A DNA stretch of 64,000 nucleotides from Dongia rigui (GTDB taxonomy: Bacteria; Pseudomonadota; Alphaproteobacteria; Dongiales; Dongiaceae), in assembly GCF_034044635.1 (NCBI RefSeq), contig NZ_JAXCLX010000001.1, forward strand, positions 1,550,001-1,614,000. Reading direction: 5' to 3'. Positions 31,096 through 60,478 of this stretch are shown piece after piece. Within the stretch, counting starts at the first letter, position 1. Each line of letters starts with the position of its first letter. The notes below the pieces were generated by a model. The model saw only the letters and a program-made list of their open reading frames with translations, was not told where the DNA came from and did no database searches. The translations under genes were made by a program, and so were the position numbers.

Positions 31096-33393
31096 ATGGG
31101 GTTCGTGAACAGCATCGGCAGCTTCTTCGGGCGCATCGCGCGCGCGAAATTCGGCCGTATTGAAGGCATCATCATCCCCATTGCCCTGCTGATGGCGGCG
31201 CTGACCTTGCGCACCTACGACCCGCCCATGGTTCAGCAGATGCGCAATATCGTGTTCGACAACTATCAGCGCATCACGCCGCGCCCTTATGACCCGACCG
31301 TGCCAATCCGCATCGGTGATATCGACGAAAAAAGCCTCAATATCTTTGGCCAATGGCCGTGGTCGCGCTCGCAGATGGCGCGCATCATCGATCGCCTGCG
31401 CGAGCTTGGCGCCGCCGTTGTGGCACTCGACATCATCTATGCCGAATCGGATCGCACCGCACCCGCGGCGGTCGCCAAGAACCTGCCGGATGACGGCAGC
31501 TTCGACGCAGCCAAGCAGATGCTGCTGAAACTGCCGGATCCCGACCAGGATCTCGCCCAGTCGCTGGCACAGATTCCGACGGTGGTTCCCTTCGCGGCCC
31601 TCGGTGCCGATCCGCAACGGCCGCAGATGCTTCCATTGCGCAAAGCGGGTTATGCCTTCGCGGGCGACAATCCGGATCAATTCATCGCGCCCTGGCGGTA
31701 TTGGGTGTCGTCGCTGCCGGAACTCGAAAAGACCGCCGCCGGCATCGGCTCGGTGAATGCCGACCCGGACCCGGACGGCATCATCCGCCAGGTGTCGCTG
31801 TTCCTGAAGCTGCCGGATCCGGGCAACCCGACGCCTTACTATCCGTCGATGGCCGCCGAAACGCTGCGCATCGCGCAAGGGCAGACGACCTATGCCATCA
31901 AATCCTCTGGTGCCAGCGGGGTGATATCCTTCGGCGAACACACCGGGATCTCGGTCGTGAAAATCGGCCAGGCCCTGGTGCCGACCACGCCCCAGGGCGC
32001 TGTAATTCTCTATGATTCCGGCCATCAGGCCGAGCGTTTCTTTTCGCTGGCCGATCTGATGTCGCCGGATTTCGATCCCAGCATCGTCGCTGGCCGGATC
32101 ATCTTCATCGGCAGTTCGGTCGAAGGTTTGAAGGATTACAAACCGACACCCAACGACGAGTCGATGACCGGGGTCGAGATCCATGCCCAGATTGCCGAGC
32201 AGATTTTCAGCAGCAAATATCTGCAGCGACCAGATTGGGCGGATGGATTGGAATGGGTCACCCTCACCGTTCTTGGTGCCGTTCTCACAATCCTCGCGCA
32301 GTTGCGGCGAGCACTTGTTGGCTTCGGCATAGCGGCCTTCGGCATCCTCGGATCCTTTGGCGCATCCTATTACATGTTTCAGTATCAGGGGTTCCTGCTC
32401 GACCCGCTCTATCCCGCCGGGGCTGCCTTCCTGATCTTCGTGACCGCGACGCTCATCGGTTATGTCCGCACCGAGCAGGAGAAGGCGCAGGTGCGCGGGG
32501 CGTTTTCGCTTTACCTGTCGCCGGTGCTGGTCGACCAGGTCTCAAAGAACCGCGAGCAGTTGAAGCTGGGTGGCGAGAATCGCGATCTCACTGTGATGTT
32601 CTGCGATATCCGCGGCTTCACCAAAATGTCGGAAGGCTTGGATCCACAGCAGCTGACTCATGTGATCAACCAGTTCCTCACCCCCATGACCGATATCATC
32701 CAGGCCAATGGCGGCACGATCGACAAGTATATCGGCGATTGCATCATGGCGTTCTGGAACGCCCCGCTCGACATTCCGCAGCATGAGCGCAAAGCCGTGC
32801 TGGCCGCCTATGGCATGCGCAGCGAACTGGTGCGATTGAACGAGACGCTGGCGGCAGAGGCGGCGGCGACGGGCGCCAAGAAGATCGAGATCAAGATCGG
32901 CATCGGCCTCAACACCGGCATCGCCTGCGTCGGCAATATGGGGTCGAAGCAGCGCTTCGGCTATTCGGCGCTGGGCGACACGGTCAACACCGCCTCGCGC
33001 CTGGAGAGCCTGTCACCGGCCTATTTCGTCGATCTGGTGCTGGGCGAGGAAACCGCAGCGGCGGCGCCCGATTTCGCCCTGCTGGAGCTGGATCAGGTGC
33101 GTGTCAAAGGCAAGAACGTGCCGGTGCGCATCTATACCGGTTTGGGTGATGAAAAGGTGGCGCAGTCCAACAGCTTCGTCGCCTTGAAGAGCCTGCACGA
33201 CGCGATGCTGGCGGCCTATCGCCACCAGTCCTGGTCATCGGCCAAGGCGTCGCTGGCGCTGGCACGCGAGGCGGCACCAGAATCGCTCGGCCGTTTCTAT
33301 GACATGTACGAAGCCCGCATCGCCGAATACGCCGCCAATCCGCCACCCGAAGATTGGGACGGCGTCTATGTGGCGATGACGAAGGGTGGGTAA
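31096..33393 (+). CDS. CHASE2-domain membrane adenylate/guanylate cyclase
   Basis: A 765-residue sensor cyclase. One N-terminal span (about residues 22-38) precedes a large periplasmic CHASE2 domain, followed by three close spans (about 380-460). The class III cyclase domain has the metal site TVMFCDIRGFTKMSEG, DKYIGDCIMAFWNAP and the catalytic SALGDTVNTASRLE. It should make cAMP (or cGMP) in response to an unknown external signal. A stand-alone cyclic-nucleotide-binding protein is encoded at 57308 in this window. Confidence 0.94.
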   Translation: MGFVNSIGSFFGRIARAKFGRIEGIIIPIALLMAALTLRTYDPPMVQQMRNIVFDNYQRITPRPYDPTVPIRIGDIDEKSLNIFGQWPWSRSQMARIIDRLRELGAAVVALDIIYAESDRTAPAAVAKNLPDDGSFDAAKQMLLKLPDPDQDLAQSLAQIPTVVPFAALGADPQRPQMLPLRKAGYAFAGDNPDQFIAPWRYWVSSLPELEKTAAGIGSVNADPDPDGIIRQVSLFLKLPDPGNPTPYYPSMAAETLRIAQGQTTYAIKSSGASGVISFGEHTGISVVKIGQALVPTTPQGAVILYDSGHQAERFFSLADLMSPDFDPSIVAGRIIFIGSSVEGLKDYKPTPNDESMTGVEIHAQIAEQIFSSKYLQRPDWADGLEWVTLTVLGAVLTILAQLRRALVGFGIAAFGILGSFGASYYMFQYQGFLLDPLYPAGAAFLIFVTATLIGYVRTEQEKAQVRGAFSLYLSPVLVDQVSKNREQLKLGGENRDLTVMFCDIRGFTKMSEGLDPQQLTHVINQFLTPMTDIIQANGGTIDKYIGDCIMAFWNAPLDIPQHERKAVLAAYGMRSELVRLNETLAAEAAATGAKKIEIKIGIGLNTGIACVGNMGSKQRFGYSALGDTVNTASRLESLSPAYFVDLVLGEETAAAAPDFALLELDQVRVKGKNVPVRIYTGLGDEKVAQSNSFVALKSLHDAMLAAYRHQSWSSAKASLALAREAAPESLGRFYDMYEARIAEYAANPPPEDWDGVYVAMTKGG

Positions 33394-48080: not shown

Positions 48081-48884
48081 TCAAGGCAACGGCCACAAGG
48101 CGCGGGGATCCTGGAATACACCCAGTTCCCCCCGCCGGGCGAGCCAATCTTGCAGGTTCTCAAGAAATCGCCAAGTGGCGGTATCATGAACGAGGTGATG
48201 GGTGAGGATTCCGGTGGGCAGGCCGGGGTCAACGACGCCCTGGCGCCGTGCCGACAGATGGGCCACCAGCCAACCCAAAGCCGGCTCCGCGCCCACGAAG
48301 CCCCGGGTGCCGCGCCAGTCAATGACATCGATCTGGGTGTTAATTTCGCGAAACGGGGGAAGTCGCGGCAGTTCCGGGGTCTTTGCCACATAGGGAAACG
48401 CGTCGAACCGGCTCACGCCGTGAAAGCCCAGGCGCAGCAGCAATTCCAAAGCAGGCGCGCCAATCCGGTTCCAGGGCGGGGTCAGGACCGGCAGCACGTC
48501 CGGCCCCAAGGTGTCGCGCAGGAAGGTGGCGGCGACGGTGAGGGCCAGTTCGATCTCGCCCAAGGCGCGGGTCGCCGGAAACTCGCTTTTCTTGGCGCCT
48601 GCCGGGGCATGGTTAAGATGCCCGACGCCGTGTTGCAGCACCCGCACCTGCCCCCAGTTCCGCAGATAGGGGCCGAGCCGTTCCTGTAAGGGCCGCTCCA
48701 GCGCCATCGGAATGACGGCCAATGCCAGCGGCACCCGCGCCACGCGGCGCAACTCATCGAGGGCCGGGGTTACATCGACGGCGTCGTCATCCCGCCACCA
48801 CAGGGTGGGCTGACGATCATCCGCGCGCCACAGGTCCCATTCACGGGCCAGCGCATCCCAATCCGCCACGGGCTTATCCGCCAT
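48081..48884 (-). CDS. NodB-fold polysaccharide-deacetylase-like protein
   Basis: A 267-residue protein resembling NodB-fold deacetylases: metal Asp pair in WWRDDDAVDV, histidines in LQHGVGHLNH and the TPPWNRIG motif. It probably removes an acyl group from a sugar of the glycan made by the neighbouring glycosyltransferases. The start at 48884 (MADKPVADWD) overlaps the upstream glycosyltransferase stop; a GTG at 48893 is an alternative. Confidence 0.8.
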   Translation of the reverse strand: MADKPVADWDALAREWDLWRADDRQPTLWWRDDDAVDVTPALDELRRVARVPLALAVIPMALERPLQERLGPYLRNWGQVRVLQHGVGHLNHAPAGAKKSEFPATRALGEIELALTVAATFLRDTLGPDVLPVLTPPWNRIGAPALELLLRLGFHGVSRFDAFPYVAKTPELPRLPPFREINTQIDVIDWRGTRGFVGAEPALGWLVAHLSARRQGVVDPGLPTGILTHHLVHDTATWRFLENLQDWLARRGELGVFQDPRALWPLP

Positions 48885-50043
48885 GCTGACCACGTTTTTT
48901 CACCAGGGCGGCCAGCGTGATCTCGGCCGAATGCCGCGCTCCGTCGAGATCGAGGTCCATCGGCAGCGCCCCCGCCTGCGCCCGGCGCGTCAGGGTTGCC
49001 GCCAGCAGGGCCGGGTCGAGATTGTCGCCATCCAGCATGTCGAGCGCACCGCGTTCGGCGAGCAGCGCTGCGCGCAAGGCCTGCTCGCTTTCCTGCCCCT
49101 CCGCAAAGGGGATGATGACCGCCGGCGTGCGCAATGCCAGCAACTCCATCACCGTGTTGTAGCCGCCCTGGCTCAAGGATACATGGCAGGACGCCAGCAA
49201 TAGGGTGAAGTCGGCGCGAAAGCGATCGGCGACGATGCCGGGATCGATCCGCGCCGCTTCCTCGAGCAACGCAAAATCCGCATCTGGCAGGTTGCGCCCG
49301 GCGACGAAGCGCCAGGGCCGTTCCTTCAAAGTGGAGAGACGCCGCGCCGCCAGGGCCGCCTTGAACAGCGGGCCGCCCACGGCGCCGCCACCGGCCGAGA
49401 CCAGCACCTCGCCATTGGCCCGATCGGCCGCCGGGACCGCTGCCGGTCTTTCGACCACATAACCGGTATAGGTGAGCTTGTCGGCAATGGATGGGGCGCG
49501 CGGAAAGGTACGCTCGAACGGCACCAGGCGCGGATCGCCATGCACCAGCACCAGGTCGAAGTAGCGCCGCACCAGATCCGCCGCCTCGAGCACGCGGTCG
49601 TCGCGGCCCTTGTCGACCAGGATGTCGCGCACGGAGCTCACCACCAACAGGCCGCCATTCTGCGCCCAATAGACCAGCGGCAGCAGCTCGAAGCGGAATT
49701 GACGGCGGCCGAAGGGATACATTTCGATGATGAGCGCATCGGGCTTGAAGGCCGCGGTCTCCTTCAGCAGCAATTCGCGGCGCCGGTCCTTCCACTCGCT
49801 GTCGATGACGCGGCCACTTTCGTCGAGCAGCGCGGAAAAGGCCGAATCGGCGGCAAGACAGGGCGGCAGCTGCAGCACCTGCGCTGCGCCGAAATCGACA
49901 TCGGCGACCTTGATCCCACCGGAGAGGACCAGGACCTTGGCACCGACCCCGCTCAAGGCGCGGGCCAGCGCCGCCGCCCGGCGCAGATGACCGATGCCGA
50001 GCAGGTGCTGGACATAAAGGGCGATGCGCGGTGCCTCAGCCAT
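48874..50043 (-). CDS. Predicted GT-B glycosyltransferase (COG4671/MurG-like), member 1
   Basis: A 389-residue protein starting with RIALYVQHLLGIGHLRRAAA, the GHLRR motif of the COG4671 predicted glycosyltransferases, and with CHVSLSQGGYNTVMELLALR near residue 280, a MurG-like nucleotide-sugar site. Donor and acceptor are unknown. It is related to the protein at 53062 in the same cluster, with overlaps on both sides. Confidence 0.82.
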   Translation of the reverse strand: MAEAPRIALYVQHLLGIGHLRRAAALARALSGVGAKVLVLSGGIKVADVDFGAAQVLQLPPCLAADSAFSALLDESGRVIDSEWKDRRRELLLKETAAFKPDALIIEMYPFGRRQFRFELLPLVYWAQNGGLLVVSSVRDILVDKGRDDRVLEAADLVRRYFDLVLVHGDPRLVPFERTFPRAPSIADKLTYTGYVVERPAAVPAADRANGEVLVSAGGGAVGGPLFKAALAARRLSTLKERPWRFVAGRNLPDADFALLEEAARIDPGIVADRFRADFTLLLASCHVSLSQGGYNTVMELLALRTPAVIIPFAEGQESEQALRAALLAERGALDMLDGDNLDPALLAATLTRRAQAGALPMDLDLDGARHSAEITLAALVKKRGQHGG

Positions 50044-50635
50044 GGTGACCCAGATCGATATTCAGTTCGACGACATCTGGCCTGCCGTCACTACCCAGGT
50101 GAAAGAGATGCGCGCGGCCGTCCTTCAATTTGACCGGCGGCTTTTCCGTCATTTGCCAACCGGTGGCAAGGGCATAGAGCGCCCGCTGCACCGCCTTGTG
50201 GCTGACCAGCACGACATCGCGTCCCTCCCCGCAAAGACGCGAGAGCAAGGGCAAGAGACGCTGCTGCACCTCGCGCGGGCTTTCTCCATTGGGCGCACGG
50301 AAATCGAGGCCCATCGCCTCGCGACTTTCGGCGTCGGACCCCGGTGCCCCGCGCAGGGCATCGAGACTCTGTCCTTCCCAATCGCCGAAGCTCATCTCGC
50401 GCAAGGCCGGTTCGATCTCGGCGGTTGCGGTGGGAAAGAGGATCGCCGCCGTCTCCCGCGCGCGGGTCAAGGGGCTGGTGAGCACGCGCCAATCCTGCCA
50501 GTCCGCCGGCACGGACCAGCTGGCGGCAGCGATGCGCCCTTCCGGGCCGAGGCCGATATCGGTCCGCCCCTGCAAGCGCTTCTCGACATTCCATTTGGTC
50601 GGCGCATGGCGAATGATCGCGCAGCGCACGCTCAT
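50036..50635 (-). CDS. Histidine phosphatase superfamily protein
   Basis: A 199-residue phosphoglycerate-mutase-like phosphatase. The nucleophile is His10 in AIIRHAPTKWN (RHA instead of RHG), then LTRARETAAI, a central Glu in MSFGDWEGQS and the second His in VVLVSHKAVQRAL. It sits between two glycosyltransferases with overlapping ends, so it may dephosphorylate a sugar or lipid-linked intermediate. Confidence 0.88.
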   Translation of the reverse strand: MSVRCAIIRHAPTKWNVEKRLQGRTDIGLGPEGRIAAASWSVPADWQDWRVLTSPLTRARETAAILFPTATAEIEPALREMSFGDWEGQSLDALRGAPGSDAESREAMGLDFRAPNGESPREVQQRLLPLLSRLCGEGRDVVLVSHKAVQRALYALATGWQMTEKPPVKLKDGRAHLFHLGSDGRPDVVELNIDLGHHG

Positions 50636-51783
50636 GTGGTCACCTTTTCACCAGTGACTTTCTCAAGCGTCTTCTTCAGCGTCGCGGCGGCCGCGGCGAT
50701 ATCGTGGAACTTGCGCGCATGCGCGGCGGTCACCAGGCGGATGGGGGCCATTTCCCGCTCCAGCGCGAAATCGACATCGGCGGCGAAGGCCGTGGTGTCG
50801 CCGGGTGCCGACAGCCAGCCGGTCTCGCCATCCGCCACGATGCCGGGAACACCACCGGAGGCACCGGCGATGACCGGCGTGCCGCAGGCCTGCGCCTCAA
50901 GGAGCGCCATGCCGAAGGCTTCGTTGATCGCCGGCCAGACGAAGAGATCGGCACTGGCATAAATCTCGGGAAGGTGTTCAGCCGGCTTCTGCCTCAGCCA
51001 GACCACGCGCTTGGCGATCGGCGTGAAAGCCGCCTCGACCTCGGCCCTTGCCGGCCCGTCGCCCACCACCAGCACCTGATAGGCCCGGGTCACATGCCGC
51101 AATGCCTCGGCCAATGCGTGGTAGGAGGCGAGCTTGTCGCCCTTGCGCATCATGCCCACGGCCAGCAGCCAGGGCATATCGGGATCGAGCCGGTACTGCT
51201 GCGAGAGTTTGAGGCGCCCCAGTCCCCGGTCCGGCCCGCGCGGATTGCCGGCAAGAAAGGCATCGATATCGAGAAAGGGCGGCAGGTCGATCAATTTCTT
51301 GGCAGCGACAATGCCGTGCAGGCATTCCTTGTCGACGGGATTGAGACAGAAGATCGCCGCGGCCTGCTTCATCGCTGCCTCGGCGGCGTCATGCGAGAAG
51401 AGGAACGGGCCCTTAGCGCGCTTTGGCGCATGGCTTGCCTCGGCCACCAGATAAGGAATGTCGAGGGCGGAGGCGACCTCTGGCCCGATCCAATCCACCG
51501 CCTTGTAATAGAGATGATAGGTGAGCCAGGCCCGGGGCCGCGCCGCCTTGGGCAGCTTCCTGTATTTGGCAATGAGCCGCGCCGCCGTGGCCTTGCCCTT
51601 GGCGGCGAATTTCTTCTGCTCGGCCAGGCTGTCGCCACTGAGGCGTGATCGAAGGCGGCTGGCGATAACCGGCGTGAAGCCACCCCGGCGCAATGCCGCC
51701 AACAGCAGCCGCCCCACGGTACGGTCACCGGAGGGATCGGGATGATCGGGGGCCTTCAAAGGCGCATAAAAGGCGATTTTCAT
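50632..51783 (-). CDS. Family-4 glycosyltransferase, member A
   Basis: A 383-residue GT4. The C-terminal donor site is FVWPAINEAFGMALLEAQAC followed by GTPVIAGASGGVPGIV. The N-terminal domain is MKIAFYAPLKAPDHPDPSGD. It overlaps the phosphatase start by four bases. It likely transfers a sugar in the synthesis of an envelope glycan or glycolipid. Confidence 0.9.
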   Translation of the reverse strand: MKIAFYAPLKAPDHPDPSGDRTVGRLLLAALRRGGFTPVIASRLRSRLSGDSLAEQKKFAAKGKATAARLIAKYRKLPKAARPRAWLTYHLYYKAVDWIGPEVASALDIPYLVAEASHAPKRAKGPFLFSHDAAEAAMKQAAAIFCLNPVDKECLHGIVAAKKLIDLPPFLDIDAFLAGNPRGPDRGLGRLKLSQQYRLDPDMPWLLAVGMMRKGDKLASYHALAEALRHVTRAYQVLVVGDGPARAEVEAAFTPIAKRVVWLRQKPAEHLPEIYASADLFVWPAINEAFGMALLEAQACGTPVIAGASGGVPGIVADGETGWLSAPGDTTAFAADVDFALEREMAPIRLVTAAHARKFHDIAAAAATLKKTLEKVTGEKVTT

Positions 51784-51831: not shown

Positions 51832-53046
51832 TTAGCGGAGGTCCATGCAGAAGCGCCGGTCGAGATCGTTGATGCCGGCATCCATGGCGAAATGGGCGTG
51901 GAGGCGCTCAAAGCCGGCATCGGCAAGGTGCTGGCGCCGCGCGGGGTCGCTGATGAGGGATTGCAGCGCGTTTGAAAGAGCTGCCGGATCTTCCGGCGGC
52001 ACGAGGAGGCCGGTTTCGCCGTCACGGATCAGTTCGGGAATGCCGGAGATATTGGTGGCGATGCAAGCGAGGCGCTGGCTTTGCGCTTCCATCAGGACAT
52101 TAGGGAGGCCATCGCGGTCGCCATCGGCGGCGATCTGGGCGGCCAGCACGAAGAGATCGGAGCGGCGATAGGCGGCGAGCACTTGTTCCTGCGGCAAGGC
52201 GCCCAGCCACTGGATGCGCGCGGCGATGCCCAATGTCTCGGCCTGGGCCTTGAGCGCTCCATCGAGTGGACCGCCGCCGATATGGGTGAGGCGCCAATCG
52301 CTTGTCGGCGGCAGCTGCGCCAGGGCATCGAGCAGCGTCGGATAGCCCTTCTTCTCGACCAGGCGGCCGACGGACAGTATCTCGACCGGGCCTGTGCGGG
52401 CATCGCGCGGCGGCGGTTCCGGGAAGCGGCGGAAATCGAGACCGTGATAGACCAGCGCCACCTTGGCCTTGTCGTCGACCAGGGTCTCAAGATGGGCATG
52501 CCCGCTGGCCGTGCAGGTCACCAGCCAGTCGAGGCTTTGGAGCTTTTCGCGCTTGTCCCATTCGGGTGAGGTCCAGATATCCTTGGCATGGGCCGAGCAG
52601 GACCAGGGGGTGCCGGCCATCAGATGGGCGTAATAGGCGACCGCCGCCGGCGTGTGCATGAAATGGGCATGGAGGCGCACGGTATCGGCCGGCATTTCCG
52701 CCACCAGCACGCAGGCCTGGCCGAAACGGCGGCCGCGATTGGGTGTCGGATCGCGGATGAGGTCTTTCAGCCATTGCCACAGGGCGCGGCCAAATCCAGG
52801 GAGACGCACGGCACGCAACAGTCCACGAAAGACGCGCCCCGGCTCCTGATAGAGATATTCCGGCAGGTAGGTGACCTTTGCCTTGATCTCGTCATGAACC
52901 GGATGGCGGTACTTGTCGGTCGGGAAGCGCAGGCTCCAGATTTCCAATGGAATGCCGCGTTGCTCCAACGCTTTGATCTCTTGCGCGATGAAGGTTTCGG
53001 AAAGGCGCGGATAGCCTTTCAGCAGGAAAAGGATTTTGCCGGTCAC
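51832..53046 (-). CDS. Family-4 glycosyltransferase, member B
   Basis: A 404-residue GT4 with IEILSVGRLVEKKGYPTLLD-type nucleotide-sugar domain, SDLFVLAAQIAADGDRDGLP and NVLMEAQSQRLACIATNISG at the donor site. It resembles colanic-acid-type transferases. It begins 15 bases after the COG4671-like gene and is followed by a 48-base gap. Confidence 0.9.
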   Translation of the reverse strand: MTGKILFLLKGYPRLSETFIAQEIKALEQRGIPLEIWSLRFPTDKYRHPVHDEIKAKVTYLPEYLYQEPGRVFRGLLRAVRLPGFGRALWQWLKDLIRDPTPNRGRRFGQACVLVAEMPADTVRLHAHFMHTPAAVAYYAHLMAGTPWSCSAHAKDIWTSPEWDKREKLQSLDWLVTCTASGHAHLETLVDDKAKVALVYHGLDFRRFPEPPPRDARTGPVEILSVGRLVEKKGYPTLLDALAQLPPTSDWRLTHIGGGPLDGALKAQAETLGIAARIQWLGALPQEQVLAAYRRSDLFVLAAQIAADGDRDGLPNVLMEAQSQRLACIATNISGIPELIRDGETGLLVPPEDPAALSNALQSLISDPARRQHLADAGFERLHAHFAMDAGINDLDRRFCMDLR

Positions 53047-53061
53047 AGGATCAGTCGAAAG

Positions 53062-54279
53062 TTAGCGCTTGCGTTGCGCGAGGCGGAGCGAGGCCGGGCG
53101 GCGGCCGCGTTCGAGTGCCTGCTGAGCGAGGCGGTTGACGTTGTTGAGGCCGTCGAGCAGGCCCGGGACCACCACCTCGGACGGGAGCGATTGCTGCGGC
53201 AATTGCCGCAGAGCCGTCGCCATCTTGCGCCAGTCGCGCACCCCGTCGTCTTCCAGCATGCCAACGAGGCCCAGTTCCTCGGCCTTGGCAGCGCGGATAA
53301 ACTGTTCCATGCGCGGGCGCGTGCGCGGCACGATGAGGGCGCGCTTGTCGAACGACACGATCTCGCAAAAGGTATTGTAGCCGCCCATGGCGACGACGCC
53401 GATGGCACGGTCCATGACATGTTCCATCTGCGCGTCGAAGGTGATGGCCTCGACCTTGTCGAGCTTGGCGGCGCGCGCCAGGAATTCCGCCTGGCGGTCG
53501 GAATGCATGAACGGCCCCAGCACGAGGAGGGCCGGATAAGGCAGGCGCTTGTCGTTTTCATAGGCGCGGATGACCCAATCGACCACGTCCTCGCCATCGC
53601 CGCCGCCACCGGTCGTGACCAGCAGATAAGGGGCGTCAATCTTCTGCAGCGGCATGGGCGCACCCGGGCCTTGCGGCAGCGAGCGGTGCAGATAGCCGGT
53701 ATAGATCATCTTGCGCTGGACCGATTTCGGGAGATCAATCCCTTCCAGCGGCTCGCATATCTGCGGCAGGCCATAGATCCAGATCTGGTCGTAAAGGTCG
53801 CGGAGCGCCGGCACGACATTCTTGCGCCGCCATTCCGGCACCAGGGCGGCCGGTTCGTCCATGATATCGCGAAGCCCTAAGACCAGATGCGTGCCCCGCT
53901 CCTTGAGCATTTCCAGCGTCTCGGTCACCTCGCCGCGCAGGCCCAGGGGTTCCTTGTCGACGATGAAGATGTCCGGATCGAAGATTTCGGCGGTATGCTT
54001 GATGATGGAGGAACGCAGGGCCAGCGTCTCTTCGGTATCGATCAGGAGCGACAGCGAGGTGTAATCGCCAGAACGCAGCTTGATGACCCCGGGAATGCGG
54101 ACGAAATCGACGCGCGCCCGGAAATTAAAGCTGCCGATGATGGGCGACCCGGTCAGGATGATGACCGACATGTCCTTGTTCTGCTCGACCAGCCAATGGG
54201 CAATGGTCTGGCAGCGGCGCAAATGGCCGAGACCGAACGTGTCATGCGAATAAATAAGGACGCGGGCGCCCCTGGTCAT
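53062..54279 (-). CDS. Predicted GT-B glycosyltransferase (COG4671/MurG-like), member 2
   Basis: A 405-residue protein beginning RVLIYSHDTFGLGHLRRCQT, with the same GHLRR motif as the protein at 48874 and VVAMGGYNTFCEIVSFDKRA at the nucleotide-sugar site. It is the first gene of the long minus-strand series. The start at 54279 has GGAAG before it; an in-frame ATG at 54291 is an alternative. A further upstream extension is unsupported. Confidence 0.85.
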   Translation of the reverse strand: MTRGARVLIYSHDTFGLGHLRRCQTIAHWLVEQNKDMSVIILTGSPIIGSFNFRARVDFVRIPGVIKLRSGDYTSLSLLIDTEETLALRSSIIKHTAEIFDPDIFIVDKEPLGLRGEVTETLEMLKERGTHLVLGLRDIMDEPAALVPEWRRKNVVPALRDLYDQIWIYGLPQICEPLEGIDLPKSVQRKMIYTGYLHRSLPQGPGAPMPLQKIDAPYLLVTTGGGGDGEDVVDWVIRAYENDKRLPYPALLVLGPFMHSDRQAEFLARAAKLDKVEAITFDAQMEHVMDRAIGVVAMGGYNTFCEIVSFDKRALIVPRTRPRMEQFIRAAKAEELGLVGMLEDDGVRDWRKMATALRQLPQQSLPSEVVVPGLLDGLNNVNRLAQQALERGRRPASLRLAQRKR

Positions 54280-54516
54280 GGCGTCTTCCATTTGCACGCG
54301 GCCCGATCCCCCCGAACACTGTGCGCCGTGTTTTCGGGCACCAACCCACCCGACGGGGCGAGTATGGCACAGGAGAAATAAGCCTCGAAAGGCAAAGTTT
54401 GGTGACTGCACGCGAATGGTCGCGCAGCCCAAGACATTGACATGGCGGGATAATTCGGCTCCATTGCTGGATGGCCGGGGTGGGCTGGGGACATCTTTCG
54501 GGGAAAAGCCGGGGTC
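54280..54516. promoter_or_regulatory. Divergent intergenic region of the glycan/ABC locus
   Basis: This 237-base gap between the minus-strand glycosyltransferase series and the plus-strand ABC gene should hold promoters for both. I see no strong palindrome or clear promoter elements; GGGGAAAAGCCGGGGTC lies just before the ABC start. Confidence 0.4.
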
Positions 54517-57237
54517 ATGGAGCCAAAACTATTTAAATATATCTGGCGCCATTCCTGGCGCGATCAGATCCCCATCCTGGCAATCGTCGTCGTTGCGCAG
54601 GTGATGTATCTCGTCTCACTCGATTTGCCCAAGCGAATTGTGAACGATGCCATCCAGGGCAAGGCCTTCGAGGGCAAAGCGGTTGCCGACTTTCTGAAAC
54701 TCACCCTGCCCTTGCCGGATTTCCTCGGCGGGCCGGTGCGCCTCTTCTCCGGATTTCAGTTCGACCAGCTCCATTACCTTTTCGCGCTGTGCTTTTCCTA
54801 CCTGTTCTTCGTCGTCCTCAATGGCTGGCTGAAGCAGACGGTCAACACGGAAAAAGGGCGCCTGGGCGAGCGCATGCTGCGCCGCCTGCGCTTCGAACTG
54901 TTCGACCGCGTCCTTCACTTTCCGCTGCTGCAATTCCGCAAGGTGAAACAGGCCGAGATCGCCACCATGATCAAGGATGAGGTGGAGCCGCTGGGCGGCT
55001 TCATCGGCGACGCCTTCATCACCCCGGCCTATCTCGGCGGTCTTGCCGCCACGGCATTGCTGTTCATCTTCATGCAGAACATGTCGATGGGCTTTGTGAC
55101 CATCGCCATGCTGGCGGTGCAGATCGTCGTCATCCCGAAACTGCGCGTCAAAATCCTGATGCTGGGCAAGCAGCGCCAGATCACCGCACGCCAACTGGCC
55201 GGTCGTATTGCCGAAAGCGTCGACGGCGCCATCGAGATCCATGCCAACGACACGTCGAACTACGAGCGCGCCGACATCATTCATCGCCTGGGCCGCATCT
55301 TCCAGATCCGCTTCGAGCTCTATCAGCGGAAGTTCTTCGTCAAATACATCAACAACATGTTGGCGCAGACGACGCCGTTTCTCTATTTCCTGATCGGCGG
55401 CTATTACGCGCTGAAAGGCGAGTTCGATGTCGGTACGCTGCTGGCCGTCATCAGCGCCTATAAGGACCTGCCGTCACCGATCAAGGAACTGATCGATTGG
55501 GACCAGCAGCGCCAGGATGTGCAGATCAAATATGACCAGGTGATCGAGCAGTTCACGCCGCCGGGCATGATGGACGCGCGCCTGCAGCACATCGACAACG
55601 AGAACGCGATCGACCCCGCGCCGGTGAAGCTGGAGCGCGTCACCTATCATGATGAAAGTGGTGCAGCACTCGCCGAGGACATCTCGCTGGAAATTGCGCC
55701 GGGCGAGCATCTGGCCATCGTCGGTGGCAACAACAGCGGCAAGGAGGCGGTCGCCGCCCTATTGGCGCGGCTGGTGCGCCCATTCAGCGGCAATCTGCGG
55801 TATGGCGAGCGGGACCTGCTCGATCTTCCCGAATCCATCACCGGCCGGCGCTTTGCCTATCTTGGCGAGGAGACCTACCTGCTGCCGGTGTCGCTGGAGG
55901 AAAACCTCCTTTACAGCCTGAAGCATCGGCCAGTGCGCCAAGCCGTCTATGAAGGCGCCGATCTCGTGGCTTATGAACGGCGCCTTTACGAGACCAAGCG
56001 CGCCGGTAGCCCGACTTTCGACTATTTCGCCGATTGGATCGATTATGACGGCGCAGGCGTGGCCGACCGCGCCGCGCTGGAGGAGCGCGTCCGCGCCCTG
56101 CTGATCACGGTCGAGTTCGAGGAAGATGTCTATCAGTTCGGCCTGCGCGGCCGGATCGAATCAAAGAGCCATAACGGGTTGACGGGGCAGTTCCTGGAAG
56201 CCCGCGCTGCGGTGCGTGCGCGTCTTGCCGAACCGCAATTTGCCAGCCTGGTCGAGCCCTTCGACCCAGCGCACTACAACCGCAACATGACGGTGGCCGA
56301 GAATATCCTTTTCGGCACCGCGCTCGATGCGACCTTCGCACCGGATGCACTGGCCACGAACACCCATCTTTCCGGCGTGCTGAGTGCCGCGGAGGTGACC
56401 AACAACCTCATCGCCCTTGGCCAGCAGATCGCCTCGACCATGGTGGAACTCTTTGCCGACCTGCCGGCGGGTCATCCCTTCTTCGAGCAGTTCAGCTTCA
56501 TCTCGGCCGAGGATCTGCCGCACTTCCAGCAATTGGTGACACGCCTGCAGCGAACTGGCGTTGAAGCCGCAACGGCGGAGGATAAGAGCCGGCTGATCGC
56601 CCTCACCTTCCCCTATATCGAGGCGCGGCACCGCTTGGGGCTCATTGACGACGCGCTGGAGGGAAAGCTGCTGAAGGCGCGCCAGCTGTTCCGGGAATTG
56701 CTGCCCAAGGCCCAGGCCGAGGCGATCGAATTCTATGGCCCGGACCGCTACAACGCCGCCGCAACGGTACAGGACAACATCCTCTTCGGGCGTCTGGTTT
56801 ACGGCCAGGCCCAGGCCGCACAGAAGATCGGCGCGGTGCTTTCCGAGGTCATCGACAGCCTGGACCTGCGACCCCAAGTGATCGCCGTGGGCCTGACCTT
56901 CAATGTGGGGGCCGCCGGCAAGAAACTGTCCTTTGCCCAGCGCCAGAAGGCGGGGCTGATCCGCGCCTTGCTGAAACGCCCGCAGCTTGTCATTCTCAAC
57001 AACACATTGTCGGCCTTTGACGAGGCGAGCCAGCGCCGGCTTCTGGTTGGGATCCGCGCGGATCTAAAGGGCGCCGCCCTGGTTTTTATTACCCATACGG
57101 CGGCCCTGGCGCGCAGCTTCGACCGGATCGTGGTGATGCAGAACGCGCGCATCGTCGAAACGGGCAAGCCCGCCGATCTCGATCGGGCAAATTCAAAATT
57201 CCAGGCGCTGTTGGGTGCGCCGGAGGCCGTGGGATAA
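54517..57237 (+). CDS. Exporter-like ABC protein with degenerate, expanded ATPase domain
   Basis: A 906-residue protein. Residues ~1-330 form an ABC-exporter-like membrane domain with about six spans. The ATPase domain begins near 370. Walker A is VGGNNSGKEAVA, with Glu where Ser/Thr binds magnesium. The signature is KKLSFAQRQKAG, and Walker B reads LVILNNTLSAFD, with Asn-Asn instead of Asp-Glu. Lys409 of Walker A and Walker B (828-829) are ~420 residues apart against ~120 normally. The ENxLxG element recurs three times (about 461, 594, 752). ATPase activity is doubtful. Confidence 0.88.
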   Translation: MEPKLFKYIWRHSWRDQIPILAIVVVAQVMYLVSLDLPKRIVNDAIQGKAFEGKAVADFLKLTLPLPDFLGGPVRLFSGFQFDQLHYLFALCFSYLFFVVLNGWLKQTVNTEKGRLGERMLRRLRFELFDRVLHFPLLQFRKVKQAEIATMIKDEVEPLGGFIGDAFITPAYLGGLAATALLFIFMQNMSMGFVTIAMLAVQIVVIPKLRVKILMLGKQRQITARQLAGRIAESVDGAIEIHANDTSNYERADIIHRLGRIFQIRFELYQRKFFVKYINNMLAQTTPFLYFLIGGYYALKGEFDVGTLLAVISAYKDLPSPIKELIDWDQQRQDVQIKYDQVIEQFTPPGMMDARLQHIDNENAIDPAPVKLERVTYHDESGAALAEDISLEIAPGEHLAIVGGNNSGKEAVAALLARLVRPFSGNLRYGERDLLDLPESITGRRFAYLGEETYLLPVSLEENLLYSLKHRPVRQAVYEGADLVAYERRLYETKRAGSPTFDYFADWIDYDGAGVADRAALEERVRALLITVEFEEDVYQFGLRGRIESKSHNGLTGQFLEARAAVRARLAEPQFASLVEPFDPAHYNRNMTVAENILFGTALDATFAPDALATNTHLSGVLSAAEVTNNLIALGQQIASTMVELFADLPAGHPFFEQFSFISAEDLPHFQQLVTRLQRTGVEAATAEDKSRLIALTFPYIEARHRLGLIDDALEGKLLKARQLFRELLPKAQAEAIEFYGPDRYNAAATVQDNILFGRLVYGQAQAAQKIGAVLSEVIDSLDLRPQVIAVGLTFNVGAAGKKLSFAQRQKAGLIRALLKRPQLVILNNTLSAFDEASQRRLLVGIRADLKGAALVFITHTAALARSFDRIVVMQNARIVETGKPADLDRANSKFQALLGAPEAVG

Positions 57238-57307
57238 TTCGCGCCGGCATCCTTATCGGGACTGCCGGGTTAGATTGACGTGTTACGTTGCTATCGGGAT
57301 GGATGCG

Positions 57308-57760
57308 ATGAGTATTCAGGAAGACGTCGAGGCGCTAAAGCGCATACCGCTTTTCGCCAAGGTGGAGCCGGCCAAGTTGAAGCTGATGGCCTTCGCCAGC
57401 GAGCGCGCGCAATATCAGCCGGGCGATTTGCTGTTCCATCAAGGCGATACGGCCGATGCCGCCTACATCATCCTGGCCGGTGCCGCCGACATTCTGGTCG
57501 AGACCGAGAACGGCCCGCTGAAGGTGGCCGATGTTGGCACCGGCGCCTTCGTGGGCGAGATCGGCATCCTGATGGATGTGCCGCGCACCGCCACCATCCG
57601 CGCTACCGAGAAGATGACCGTCCTCAAGATCACCAAGGAGCTGTTCTTCCGCATGGTGACGGATTTCCCCTCGATCGGCATCGAGGTCATGCGCGTCCTT
57701 GCACAACGCATCGAGCATATGAACGTCCAGCTGCGCGAAGCGGTGGCGGCCAGGAAGTGA
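57308..57760 (+). CDS. Stand-alone cyclic-nucleotide-binding-domain protein
   Basis: A 150-residue protein formed almost entirely of one cNMP-binding fold (LFAKVEPAKLKLMAF, PGDLLFHQGDTADAAYIILA, GAFVGEIGILMDVPRTATIR), without a DNA-binding helix-turn-helix. The phosphate-binding cassette contains GEIGILMDVPRTATI; the conserved Glu and Arg are present. It may sense cAMP made by cyclases such as that at 31096, or act as a structural module for the ABC protein encoded 70 bases upstream. ATG 57299 is an alternative start. Confidence 0.85.
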   Translation: MSIQEDVEALKRIPLFAKVEPAKLKLMAFASERAQYQPGDLLFHQGDTADAAYIILAGAADILVETENGPLKVADVGTGAFVGEIGILMDVPRTATIRATEKMTVLKITKELFFRMVTDFPSIGIEVMRVLAQRIEHMNVQLREAVAARK

Positions 57761-57794: not shown

Positions 57795-58289
57795 ATGAGC
57801 CGCCTGGACAGTTTCATCCGCCGCCTGGAAGCGCAGCGCAGCTGCCTCGCCGATGCCGCCAGGCGGTCACGGGAGACCAGGGGTGTTGTCCTCGAACTCG
57901 GCCTCGGCAATGGCCGCACCTTCGATCATCTGCGCGAAATCTGCGCTGGGCGTGACATCTATGTCTTCGACCGCCAGGTCGCTGCCCATCCCGATTGCAT
58001 CCCGGCGCCCGACCGGATGTTCCTTGGCGACTTTACCCAGACGCTGAAAGATGCCCGGGCAAAATTGGGCGACAACGCCGCCGCCATGATCCATGTCGAT
58101 CTCGGCAGCGGCGATGCGGCAGCAAGCCTGGCGCTGGCCGCGCGCCTTGCCCCGGATATCGCCGCCCTGATGGCGCCACGGGCGGTCTTGGTCAGTGACC
58201 AGCCGGTCGAGGCACCGGACCTTGCTGCACTCCCCTTGCCCGAGGGTGTTCGACCCGGGCGCTATTTCATGGCCGAGAAGCGGGGCTGA
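57795..58289 (+). CDS. Small class I SAM-dependent methyltransferase-like protein
   Basis: A 164-residue protein with SAM-binding motif I VVLELGLGNGRTFDHL near residues 33-48, and FDRQ and MIHVDLGSGD further on. It lacks a large substrate domain. It lies 34 bases after the cNMP-binding gene in the plus-strand arm of the glycan/ABC locus, so it might methylate the product. The target is unknown. Confidence 0.78.
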   Translation: MSRLDSFIRRLEAQRSCLADAARRSRETRGVVLELGLGNGRTFDHLREICAGRDIYVFDRQVAAHPDCIPAPDRMFLGDFTQTLKDARAKLGDNAAAMIHVDLGSGDAAASLALAARLAPDIAALMAPRAVLVSDQPVEAPDLAALPLPEGVRPGRYFMAEKRG

Positions 58290-58375: not shown

Positions 58376-60478
58376 ATGCGCCCCACAACCCTTCCCCGCG
58401 CCCTCCTGACCACCCTCGCTTGCCTGTTCATGCTGTGCCATGCAGCCACGGCCAAGGTGGCCGACGACCGGGTCACCCTGCCGCGCGAAAAAGGCACGCC
58501 GATGGGGGCTGTTGGCATGGTGCTGCATCTGGGTGCCGATGGCTCGGCGCTTGGCACCGGTTTCCTGGTATCGCCCTGCCATGTGCTGACCGCCGCCCAT
58601 GTCGTCTCGGAGCCGGAAGGCATTTCGGCAGATCAGGTGCTGCTGTTCTTCATCGGCAGCGGCAATCTGGGGCCGGAATATTACGAAGCCAATTCCTTTG
58701 CCGAATTGAGCCCGGCGCGCCCCGTGGTCTGGGGCGAATCCCGGCAGCTGCACAAGGGATCGACCGCCGACCGGCGCGAAGCCTGGCAGAAGGCCGGCTG
58801 GGACGATTGGGCGCTCCTCAAGCTCGACAAATGCCTGGGCGACGAGGGCTACGGCTATCTCAACCTGCTGCCCATCGCCACCAGGGATTTCACGCGTGAC
58901 GGCAATACCCGGCCGATCACCTCGATCGGCCTGCCGGCCGACCACAACAACGAGAAGCTCACCATCGACCCGGCCTGCACGCTCTTCGGCCAGGTCGACA
59001 GCACCGGCTGGCAGCATGATTGCACCAGCATGCCGGGGAATTCCGGCGGGCCGATCCTTGCCGCCAAGCCGGAGGGTGATGAGAAATGGCCGCGGGTCAT
59101 GGGCATCACCGTGATCTCGACCAGCGAGCATCCGGAAGAATTGAAGCCGATGATCAACGACCCGGAGGCGCCTGACTATCTCGGCAATCTGCCGACCGCC
59201 GTGCCGGTTTCCGCCTTCATCGACAAGATCGCGCCTTATCTCCCGAAAGACCCGGTGGTCTCCGCCTATCTTGCCAAGCATCCCAATGCCGATCGCGGCT
59301 ACAGCATCGACAACACCAAGGAGCCGATTGCCGACCTCACCGCGGCCATTGCCAAGAAGCCGCGCTCGGCCTTGCTGTTGACCTTGCGCGGCTCGTGGCT
59401 GGAGGCGGCCAAGGACGAGGCGGCGGCACTGGTCGATTATTCGGCGGCCCTGCGCGCTGATCCCAAATTCGCGCCGGCGCTCTATGCCCGGGCGCAGCTC
59501 CGCGGCTATCGCGATGACAAGATGCAAGGCGATGCCAAGGCGGCCCTTGCCGATCTCGAGGTGCTCATCAAGCGCTTTCCGGATGATCCCAGCCTGCGTA
59601 TCACCCGCGGCGCCCTGCTGTCCGGCGCCTATGATTATCGTGCGGCACTGGTCGATTACGATGCCGCCCTGAAGCTCGACCCCAGCAACATCTCGGCCCG
59701 CCTGACCCGTGCCAATGCCCGGGTGGAGCTGGGCGACATGAAGGGGGCGAAGGCGGATTTCGACGCCGCCATCGCGGCCCGGTCCGACAATGCCTATCTG
59801 CTGGTCGAGCGCGCCAATTATCAGCTAAGGGCCGGCGATCACAAACGCGCCTTCGACGACATCGAGGCCGCGCTGAAGATCGAGCCGGACATGCCGACGG
59901 CGTTGAATGCCCGCGCCATCGTCCATCTCGATCTGGGTGAGATCGACAAGGCACTGATCGATGCCAACCGCACGATCGGCCTCGACCCGGATCCGTCGAG
60001 CGGCCACATCGCGTTGCGTGGCACGATTCACCACATCAAGGGCGATCTCGACGCCGCGATCGCCGATTACCGCGAGGCGGAGAAACTCAATCCGACCGAG
60101 CCCTTCGACGCGTTGATGCTCTATATCGCCCTGGGCGAAGCCGGGCGGATGAACGAGGCCAAGGAAGAACTGCGCCAGTTGCTGAAGCGCTGGCCGACCA
60201 CCGAATGGCCGAGCCCGCTTGCCGAACATCTGCTCGGTGAGAATTCGGAAGCGGAGCTGAAGAAGGCGGCGATGGCGGGCACCGAAGTGCTGCGCAAATA
60301 CCAGGATTTCGACTGGCATTTCTATCTCGGTGCCCAGGCCATGCTGCAGGGCGACAAGAAGAAGGCCAAGACTTATTTCCAGCATGTCGTCGACACCGAC
60401 ATGCGCCAGTTCCTGGAATACAACCTCGCCCGCATCTTCCTGGAACGGTTGGGCGGCGACAGCTACGTCAAGGGCTGA
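58376..60478 (+). CDS. Exported trypsin-like serine protease with TPR domain
   Basis: A 700-residue protein. Signal peptide 1-26 (ends AATA-K). The chymotrypsin-fold domain has His75 (LTAAHVV), Asp144 (DDWALLKL) and Ser223 (MPGNSGGP). From about residue 310 a series of ~34-residue TPR repeats (ALVDYSAALRADPKFAPALY, then similar units) runs to the end. A periplasmic or secreted protease with TPR protein-binding repeats is suggested. It faces the sulfatase-fold gene convergently. Confidence 0.9.
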   Translation: MRPTTLPRALLTTLACLFMLCHAATAKVADDRVTLPREKGTPMGAVGMVLHLGADGSALGTGFLVSPCHVLTAAHVVSEPEGISADQVLLFFIGSGNLGPEYYEANSFAELSPARPVVWGESRQLHKGSTADRREAWQKAGWDDWALLKLDKCLGDEGYGYLNLLPIATRDFTRDGNTRPITSIGLPADHNNEKLTIDPACTLFGQVDSTGWQHDCTSMPGNSGGPILAAKPEGDEKWPRVMGITVISTSEHPEELKPMINDPEAPDYLGNLPTAVPVSAFIDKIAPYLPKDPVVSAYLAKHPNADRGYSIDNTKEPIADLTAAIAKKPRSALLLTLRGSWLEAAKDEAAALVDYSAALRADPKFAPALYARAQLRGYRDDKMQGDAKAALADLEVLIKRFPDDPSLRITRGALLSGAYDYRAALVDYDAALKLDPSNISARLTRANARVELGDMKGAKADFDAAIAARSDNAYLLVERANYQLRAGDHKRAFDDIEAALKIEPDMPTALNARAIVHLDLGEIDKALIDANRTIGLDPDPSSGHIALRGTIHHIKGDLDAAIADYREAEKLNPTEPFDALMLYIALGEAGRMNEAKEELRQLLKRWPTTEWPSPLAEHLLGENSEAELKKAAMAGTEVLRKYQDFDWHFYLGAQAMLQGDKKKAKTYFQHVVDTDMRQFLEYNLARIFLERLGGDSYVKG

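Follow-up and report, generated by a model that had tools for sequence, protein, structure and literature searches.

Can a protein that is built like an ABC exporter still work as an ATP-driven pump when its ATPase motifs have decayed, and what might operate it otherwise? ABC transporters are textbook ATP motors. The question is raised by a gene of Dongia rigui, which we analysed together with its surroundings in a window of 64,000 nucleotides, as the encoded protein has a type IV exporter fold and lacks the intact motifs of an ABC ATPase. Its homologues show it to be a member of a conserved and widespread alphaproteobacterial family of ABC exporter-fold proteins, which is apparently unnamed. 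The decayed motor, a repeated element that has been kept and a partner protein with a cyclic-nucleotide-binding (CNB) domain together suggest a transporter that is switched by a small signal molecule and not by the usual ATP drive. The features discussed below are listed in Table 1.

Table 1. Features of the ABC exporter-fold gene and of its conserved neighbours (positions in the window).
Feature	Position	Strand	Remark
Pseudo-ATPase ABC exporter-fold protein, 906 aa (putative)	54517..57237	+	ATG start
Transmembrane domain, residues 1-345, type IV exporter fold	54517..55551	+	sister to NBD-less clade
Walker A GGNNSGKE, residues 403-410	55723..55746	+	acid in place of Ser/Thr after Lys
Q-loop region and first EN element ENLLYS, residues 446-467	55852..55917	+	Q-loop Gln is Glu451
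Conserved insert, residues 471-748, Q-loop to signature interval	55927..56760	+	
Repeat module A, residues ~553-637, second EN element ENILFG at 595-600	56173..56427	+	
Repeat module B, residues ~712-794, third element DNILFG at 753-758	56650..56898	+	continues into remaining helical subdomain
Degenerate signature LSFAQ, residues 804-808	56926..56940	+	
Walker B VILNN, residues 825-829	56989..57003	+	
H-loop His860	57094..57096	+	present in this protein, lost in most relatives
Stand-alone CNB domain protein; phosphate-binding cassette GEIGILMDVPRTATIRA	57299..57760	+	
Methyltransf_17 SAM-dependent methyltransferase, third gene of conserved block	57795..58289	+	
Divergent glycosyltransferase, GT28-like/MJ1255-type, ORF limits	53062..54432	-	neighbour in 113/172 loci
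GT4-type glycosyltransferase, conserved neighbour	51832..53046	-	
GT4-type glycosyltransferase, conserved neighbour	50632..51783	-	
Histidine phosphatase (branch 1), conserved neighbour	50036..50635	-	
MurG/PseG/MJ1255-like glycosyltransferase, conserved neighbour	48874..50043	-	

As in the type IV exporters MsbA, TmrAB, TM287/288 and Atm1, a six-helix transmembrane domain (TMD) is followed by a nucleotide-binding domain (NBD) in one chain, and sequence and fold match these proteins over the TMD and the NBD core. The Pfam domain ABC_membrane (PF00664) was found above cut-off at residues 83-313 (E 1.7e-13), fused to ABC_tran (PF00005), which also scored above cut-off but reaches residue 478 only. 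Similarly, alignments with many exporters (phmmer, NCBIfam) cover the interval from Walker A to the Q-loop and that from the signature to the end, and skip the middle. AlphaFold modelled the full chain well (pLDDT 83, pTM 0.76), and Foldseek matched this model to whole exporters, namely MsbA, TmrB and Atm1; its low-confidence parts, residues 155-175 and 319-329, are both strongly conserved. A search of the PDB with the TMD alone (phmmer, 1e-12) gave no match, and an assignment as the MsbA lipid A flippase equivalog was rejected, with a TIGR02203 score of 158.5 bits against a cut-off of 602. What sets the family apart from the type IV exporters is the decay of Walker A, Walker B, signature and H-loop within one chain, an insert of about 280 residues with a duplicated Q-loop/EN module, and a near-universal CNB neighbour.

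The preliminary description of this DNA had reported a Glu after the Walker A Lys, Asn-Asn for the Walker B Asp-Glu and a distance of about 420 residues between the two motifs, and all three were confirmed. Walker A reads GGNNSGKEA (K409, E410) and departs from GxxGxGK[ST], Walker B reads VILNN (N828, N829) and lies 419 residues from K409, and the signature is LSFAQ instead of LSGGQ; the canonical exporters encoded in the same genome have GK[ST], SGGQ and DE all intact. Counts for the ATP site and the EN residues were taken from an alignment of 173 full-length homologues. Position 409 is Lys in 120 and Arg in 35 of them (K/R together in 155/173), and the following residue is Asp in 75 or Glu in 71 (D/E in 146/173) and Ser/Thr in 11. 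The first Walker B Asp (position 828) is lost in 149/173, with Asn in 123, and kept in 24, while the second position (829) is Glu in 105, Asp in 23 and Asn in 13. N829 is typical of the protein's own clade only (13/173), and its Asn-Asn pair is a local extreme; most relatives have lost only the first Asp and retain the Glu. His860 of the H-loop is present in the D. rigui protein but in only 28/173 relatives and lost in 145/173, Asp835 of the D-loop is kept in 156/173, and the middle positions of the signature are degenerate across the family. In Roseobacter-type members, the whole Walker A motif is unrecognisable, yet the EN elements or their Asn are retained. The loss of hydrolysis chemistry, as claimed earlier, is a trait of the family across the 173 homologues and not that of one bad copy.

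These counts bear on the main rival explanation, according to which ATP would still be used: the metal-site acid would have moved from Walker B to Walker A, and ATP binding or slow hydrolysis would drive or gate the protein, with the CNB partner only modulating it. An acid at position 410 occurs without Asp828 in 140 of the 173 sequences, Asp828 without the acid in 18, both in 6 and neither in 9, a pattern that looks like an acid swapped between the two motifs. On a tree built without these two columns, about 5.7 of 10 independent contrasts were concordant and 0.1 discordant (sign test, median p 0.03). Such acid-swapped sites could coordinate Mg2+ by another route, but the covariation may preserve just a hydrogen bond rather than metal binding. 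As K/R409 is present in 155/173 and Glu829 in 105/173 homologues, nucleotide may still bind, and the frequent Asp835 likewise speaks for this rival. ABC proteins are also known in which ATP still drives opening despite degenerate sites, and this counts against a pseudo-ATPase. On the other hand, the H-loop His has gone from most sequences, the signature is not LSGGQ, the catalytic Glu is missing in the D. rigui protein, Walker A has disappeared in some lineages, and a sister clade described below has no NBD. Taken together, we consider a moved metal site rather unlikely, and we rank two further alternatives, discussed below, beneath it. A single degenerate copy or pseudogene, as might be suspected from the mutated ATPase motifs, has a negligible probability: the features are shared by 173 like homologues under purifying selection, with a dN/dS of 0.04-0.30 across every part of the protein, the insert too, and with invariant Asn residues in the repeats.

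The expansion of about 300 residues noted in the preliminary description corresponds to the insert of about 280 residues, which lies between the Q-loop and the signature, is common to the 173 full-length homologues and is carried at the nearest 80 loci; of the two features whose conservation an alignment was to settle, the insert is conserved and Asn-Asn is not. Three EN-type elements are present, as had been described, at residues 462 (ENLLYS), 595 (ENILFG) and 753 (DNILFG), but the third begins with D and not with E; the first ends in S and not in G. Their Asn is invariant in the second and third element (Asn596 and Asn754, 173/173) and found in 170/173 homologues in the first (Asn463). The pattern [ED]N[ILV][LIV][FY][GS] matches the protein three times and not one of 20,000 shuffled proteins reached even two matches, which rules out a chance origin of the motifs.

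A comparison of the profiles of residues 545-655 and 703-805 aligned the segments ~553-637 and 712-794 over 83 columns (probability 99.15%, E 3.7e-19); the score was 101.6, and none of 50 column shuffles exceeded 16. The duplicated unit consists of a helix (LLxAR), a strand (VExFDPxxYN), the EN helix, an FG strand and helices. Since the stretch with the Q-loop and the first EN element aligns to both module copies (81% and 88%), the Q-loop/EN segment is present three times in the protein. The partial internal duplication proposed earlier was thus upheld, but its unit is the Q-loop strand, the EN helix and the following helices and not the whole helical subdomain. Module B passes into the true helical subdomain, for which the comparison with canonical NBDs gave a match of 99.5%. 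Compared directly with canonical NBDs, the insert profile is placed in the correct register at the EN element with a score at about shuffle level, and we therefore argue for descent from an NBD via module B, which is plainly NBD. For the rest of the insert, no relative was recognised by sequence or fold; AlphaFold models the insert alone with a pLDDT of 85, but PDB fold matches with E below 0.001 are absent.

The TMD is the most conserved large region of the protein (mean 0.63) and contains many near-invariant charged residues. A highly conserved Gly/acid-rich stretch, KDEVEPLGGFIGDAF..P, at residues ~153-170 (54973-55026) marks the start of TM3 and is possibly a broken helix; this part of the model has low confidence. 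The D. rigui genome also encodes a TMD-only protein of about 314 residues with the Pfam domain ABC_membrane (L193:6545-7489, minus strand; G000:C1:1340047-1340988), and NBD-less TMD proteins of ~310-340 residues occur in several other alphaproteobacterial families. Together, these proteins are sister to the family's TMD, with 95-115 bits as against 20 bits or less for canonical exporters; the tree was a quick one with long canonical branches, and the sister relation rests equally on these scores. E155, E157, G161-F162, G164, P170, P207 and other residues are common to both groups, and the sister clade is also without the insert. Within ~3.9 kb around six NBD-less copies, no canonical NBD gene was found. 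The TMD lineage hence exists without an attached motor, and given the analogy with SbmA/BacA, no other finding points as clearly to a TMD that may function without ATP hydrolysis. SbmA/BacA (SLiPT) peptide transporters combine an ABC-type TMD without an NBD with secondary, proton-driven transport, and an origin by NBD loss has been proposed for them (PMC13316013). Membership of the D. rigui protein in this group was rejected: SLiPTs have neither an NBD nor coupling helices and rely on a glutamate ladder, whereas this family has a conserved and elaborated pseudo-NBD.

Directly downstream of the ABC gene and in the same direction, a gene for a CNB protein of ~155 residues is found in 150/172 loci, with a median gap of ~36 bp, and in 16/172 loci the ABC protein itself ends in a C-terminally fused CNB domain; adjacent or fused, this domain is present in 166/172 loci and absent from 6. 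WP_223118636.1, a Ruegeria plasmid protein, is one homologue with a natural fusion. The D. rigui CNB reading frame opens at 57215, with a likely ATG at 57299 or 57308. The phosphate-binding cassette, with the consensus GEIxILxDxPRTATxxA, contains its Glu in 104, its Arg in 114 and its Thr in 99 of 114 sequences, and both Glu and Arg are present in the D. rigui partner. The Thr after the Arg is the residue seen in cGMP-type sites. The best PDB matches of the partner are CNB domains, cGMP-dependent kinases among them. The cassette (GE...R-T-A-T) is like that of the PKG/PKA regulatory domains and of stand-alone bacterial CNB proteins, but a DNA-binding or kinase domain is absent, and the partner is paired or fused with an ABC protein. 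Together, fusion and near-universal adjacency are strong evidence that the ABC and CNB proteins work together. The preliminary description, which had proposed a gated channel or a scaffold among its readings, did not include this partner, and its near-universal presence makes ligand gating more likely. The D. rigui genome encodes ten class III cyclase domains. One class III adenylate/guanylate cyclase domain lies in the window (32584-33117, plus strand), within an open reading frame of ~776 aa.

Alternatively, the protein could pair with a canonical ABC half-transporter and serve as the regulatory half of the resulting heterodimer, and the preliminary description had likewise considered a half in need of another ATPase. 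Deviating nucleotide-site motifs are also found in TM287/288, TAP1/2, TmrAB and CFTR, and the D. rigui genome does encode other exporters. Heterodimeric exporters often have one degenerate site and keep the other canonical (PMC7756269), whereas here the Walker motifs and the signature all deviate in one chain, and no canonical partner is linked. Another canonical ABC ATPase is near the ABC gene in only 19/172 loci, which argues against the earlier suggestion, and as a rule there is one family copy per genome. We consider a heterodimer half, with a partner possibly encoded elsewhere in the genome, very unlikely.

In Rhodospirillales, the ABC-CNB pair is followed by the Methyltransf_17 gene and lies opposite a divergent block of glycosyltransferase and histidine phosphatase genes. 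In Rhizobiaceae, namely on pRL11 of Rhizobium johnstonii and pSymB of Sinorhizobium, the pair also adjoins glycosyltransferase genes. For R. johnstonii pRL11 (L129), the 'O-antigen' gene pRL110056 has been reported to be important for root colonisation, and it may be the glycosyltransferase gene next to the ABC homologue, with the locus-tag mapping unproven. In only the closest relatives, the block is adjoined by a gene for a protein with a trypsin-like peptidase domain followed by TPR repeats (58376-60478, plus strand, in the window). The glycosyltransferase cluster was not found near the ABC gene in about one third of the loci, for example the Roseobacter-type locus, and the link to glycans may thus hold for part of the family only. 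This linkage, the decayed motor, the signal-binding partner and the enlarged cytoplasmic insert could also be explained by a non-transporting platform or sensor, in which the CNB protein and the pseudo-ABC protein would regulate the adjoining glycosyltransferases or another transporter, like SUR for KATP channels. The high conservation of the TMD with its near-invariant charged residues speaks against such a role, as does the lack of the cluster in some members, and we regard it as improbable.

The sequences themselves show the architecture and its conservation, the decay of the motifs, the duplication, the pairing and fusion with the CNB domain and the NBD-less sister clade. For the ABC-CNB pair, we propose a mechanism in which homodimeric state, docking, gating, ligand, substrate and energy source are inferred from the above. 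In it, the ABC exporter-fold protein with its decayed motor is a pseudo-ATPase, presumably a homodimer. A Q-loop/EN module of ~85 residues was duplicated inside the NBD and gave rise to the three EN elements and the insert, with which the surface between NBD and TMD has probably become larger. The CNB domain, encoded downstream or fused C-terminally, most likely uses this enlarged pseudo-NBD as its docking site, and a cyclic nucleotide bound to the CNB domain would switch the TMD. Rather than pumping by ATP hydrolysis, the ABC protein would then be a ligand-gated conduit, a flippase or a secondary transporter; CFTR is an example of an ABC fold that works as a gated channel. In D. rigui, the adjacent glycosyltransferase and methyltransferase genes are likely to supply the cargo or the controlled process, in the form of a glycolipid or surface glycan. 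We give about even weight to the general proposal of a homodimeric pseudo-ATPase whose TMD is gated by a CNB protein docked on the pseudo-NBD, with a glycan-linked cargo or process. More tentatively, and below even chances, we speculate that CNB control acting on the triplicated Q-loop/EN surface has replaced ATP hydrolysis, making the protein a cyclic-nucleotide-gated conduit or secondary transporter. If this is true, the family shows how a motor domain was turned into a ligand-operated regulator, and cyclic nucleotides in Alphaproteobacteria gain a membrane-transport target.

A genome-wide scan returned 194 relatives, of which the best 80 are nearly all full length (~905 aa) and collinear, and the 173 full-length homologues are alphaproteobacterial as far as named. 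The insert profile matched 131/385 genomes in a class-wide sample (118/315 of those of good quality) and 31/398 in a search confined to the phylum, all of them Alphaproteobacteria. A description of the family was not found in one library of open-access literature, which was searched for degenerate Walker motifs, CNB with ABC, inactive sites, R. centenum cGMP and Methyltransf_17 with glycosyltransferase. The family is present in 262 plasmid records, chiefly replicons of Rhizobium and Sinorhizobium, two genera that are easy to handle in the laboratory, under generic product names such as 'ABC transporter ATP-binding protein'. One genome of a Roseobacter-type lineage (G154) encodes three paralogues (L109, L110, L111), all of which are CNB-fused and have lost Walker A.
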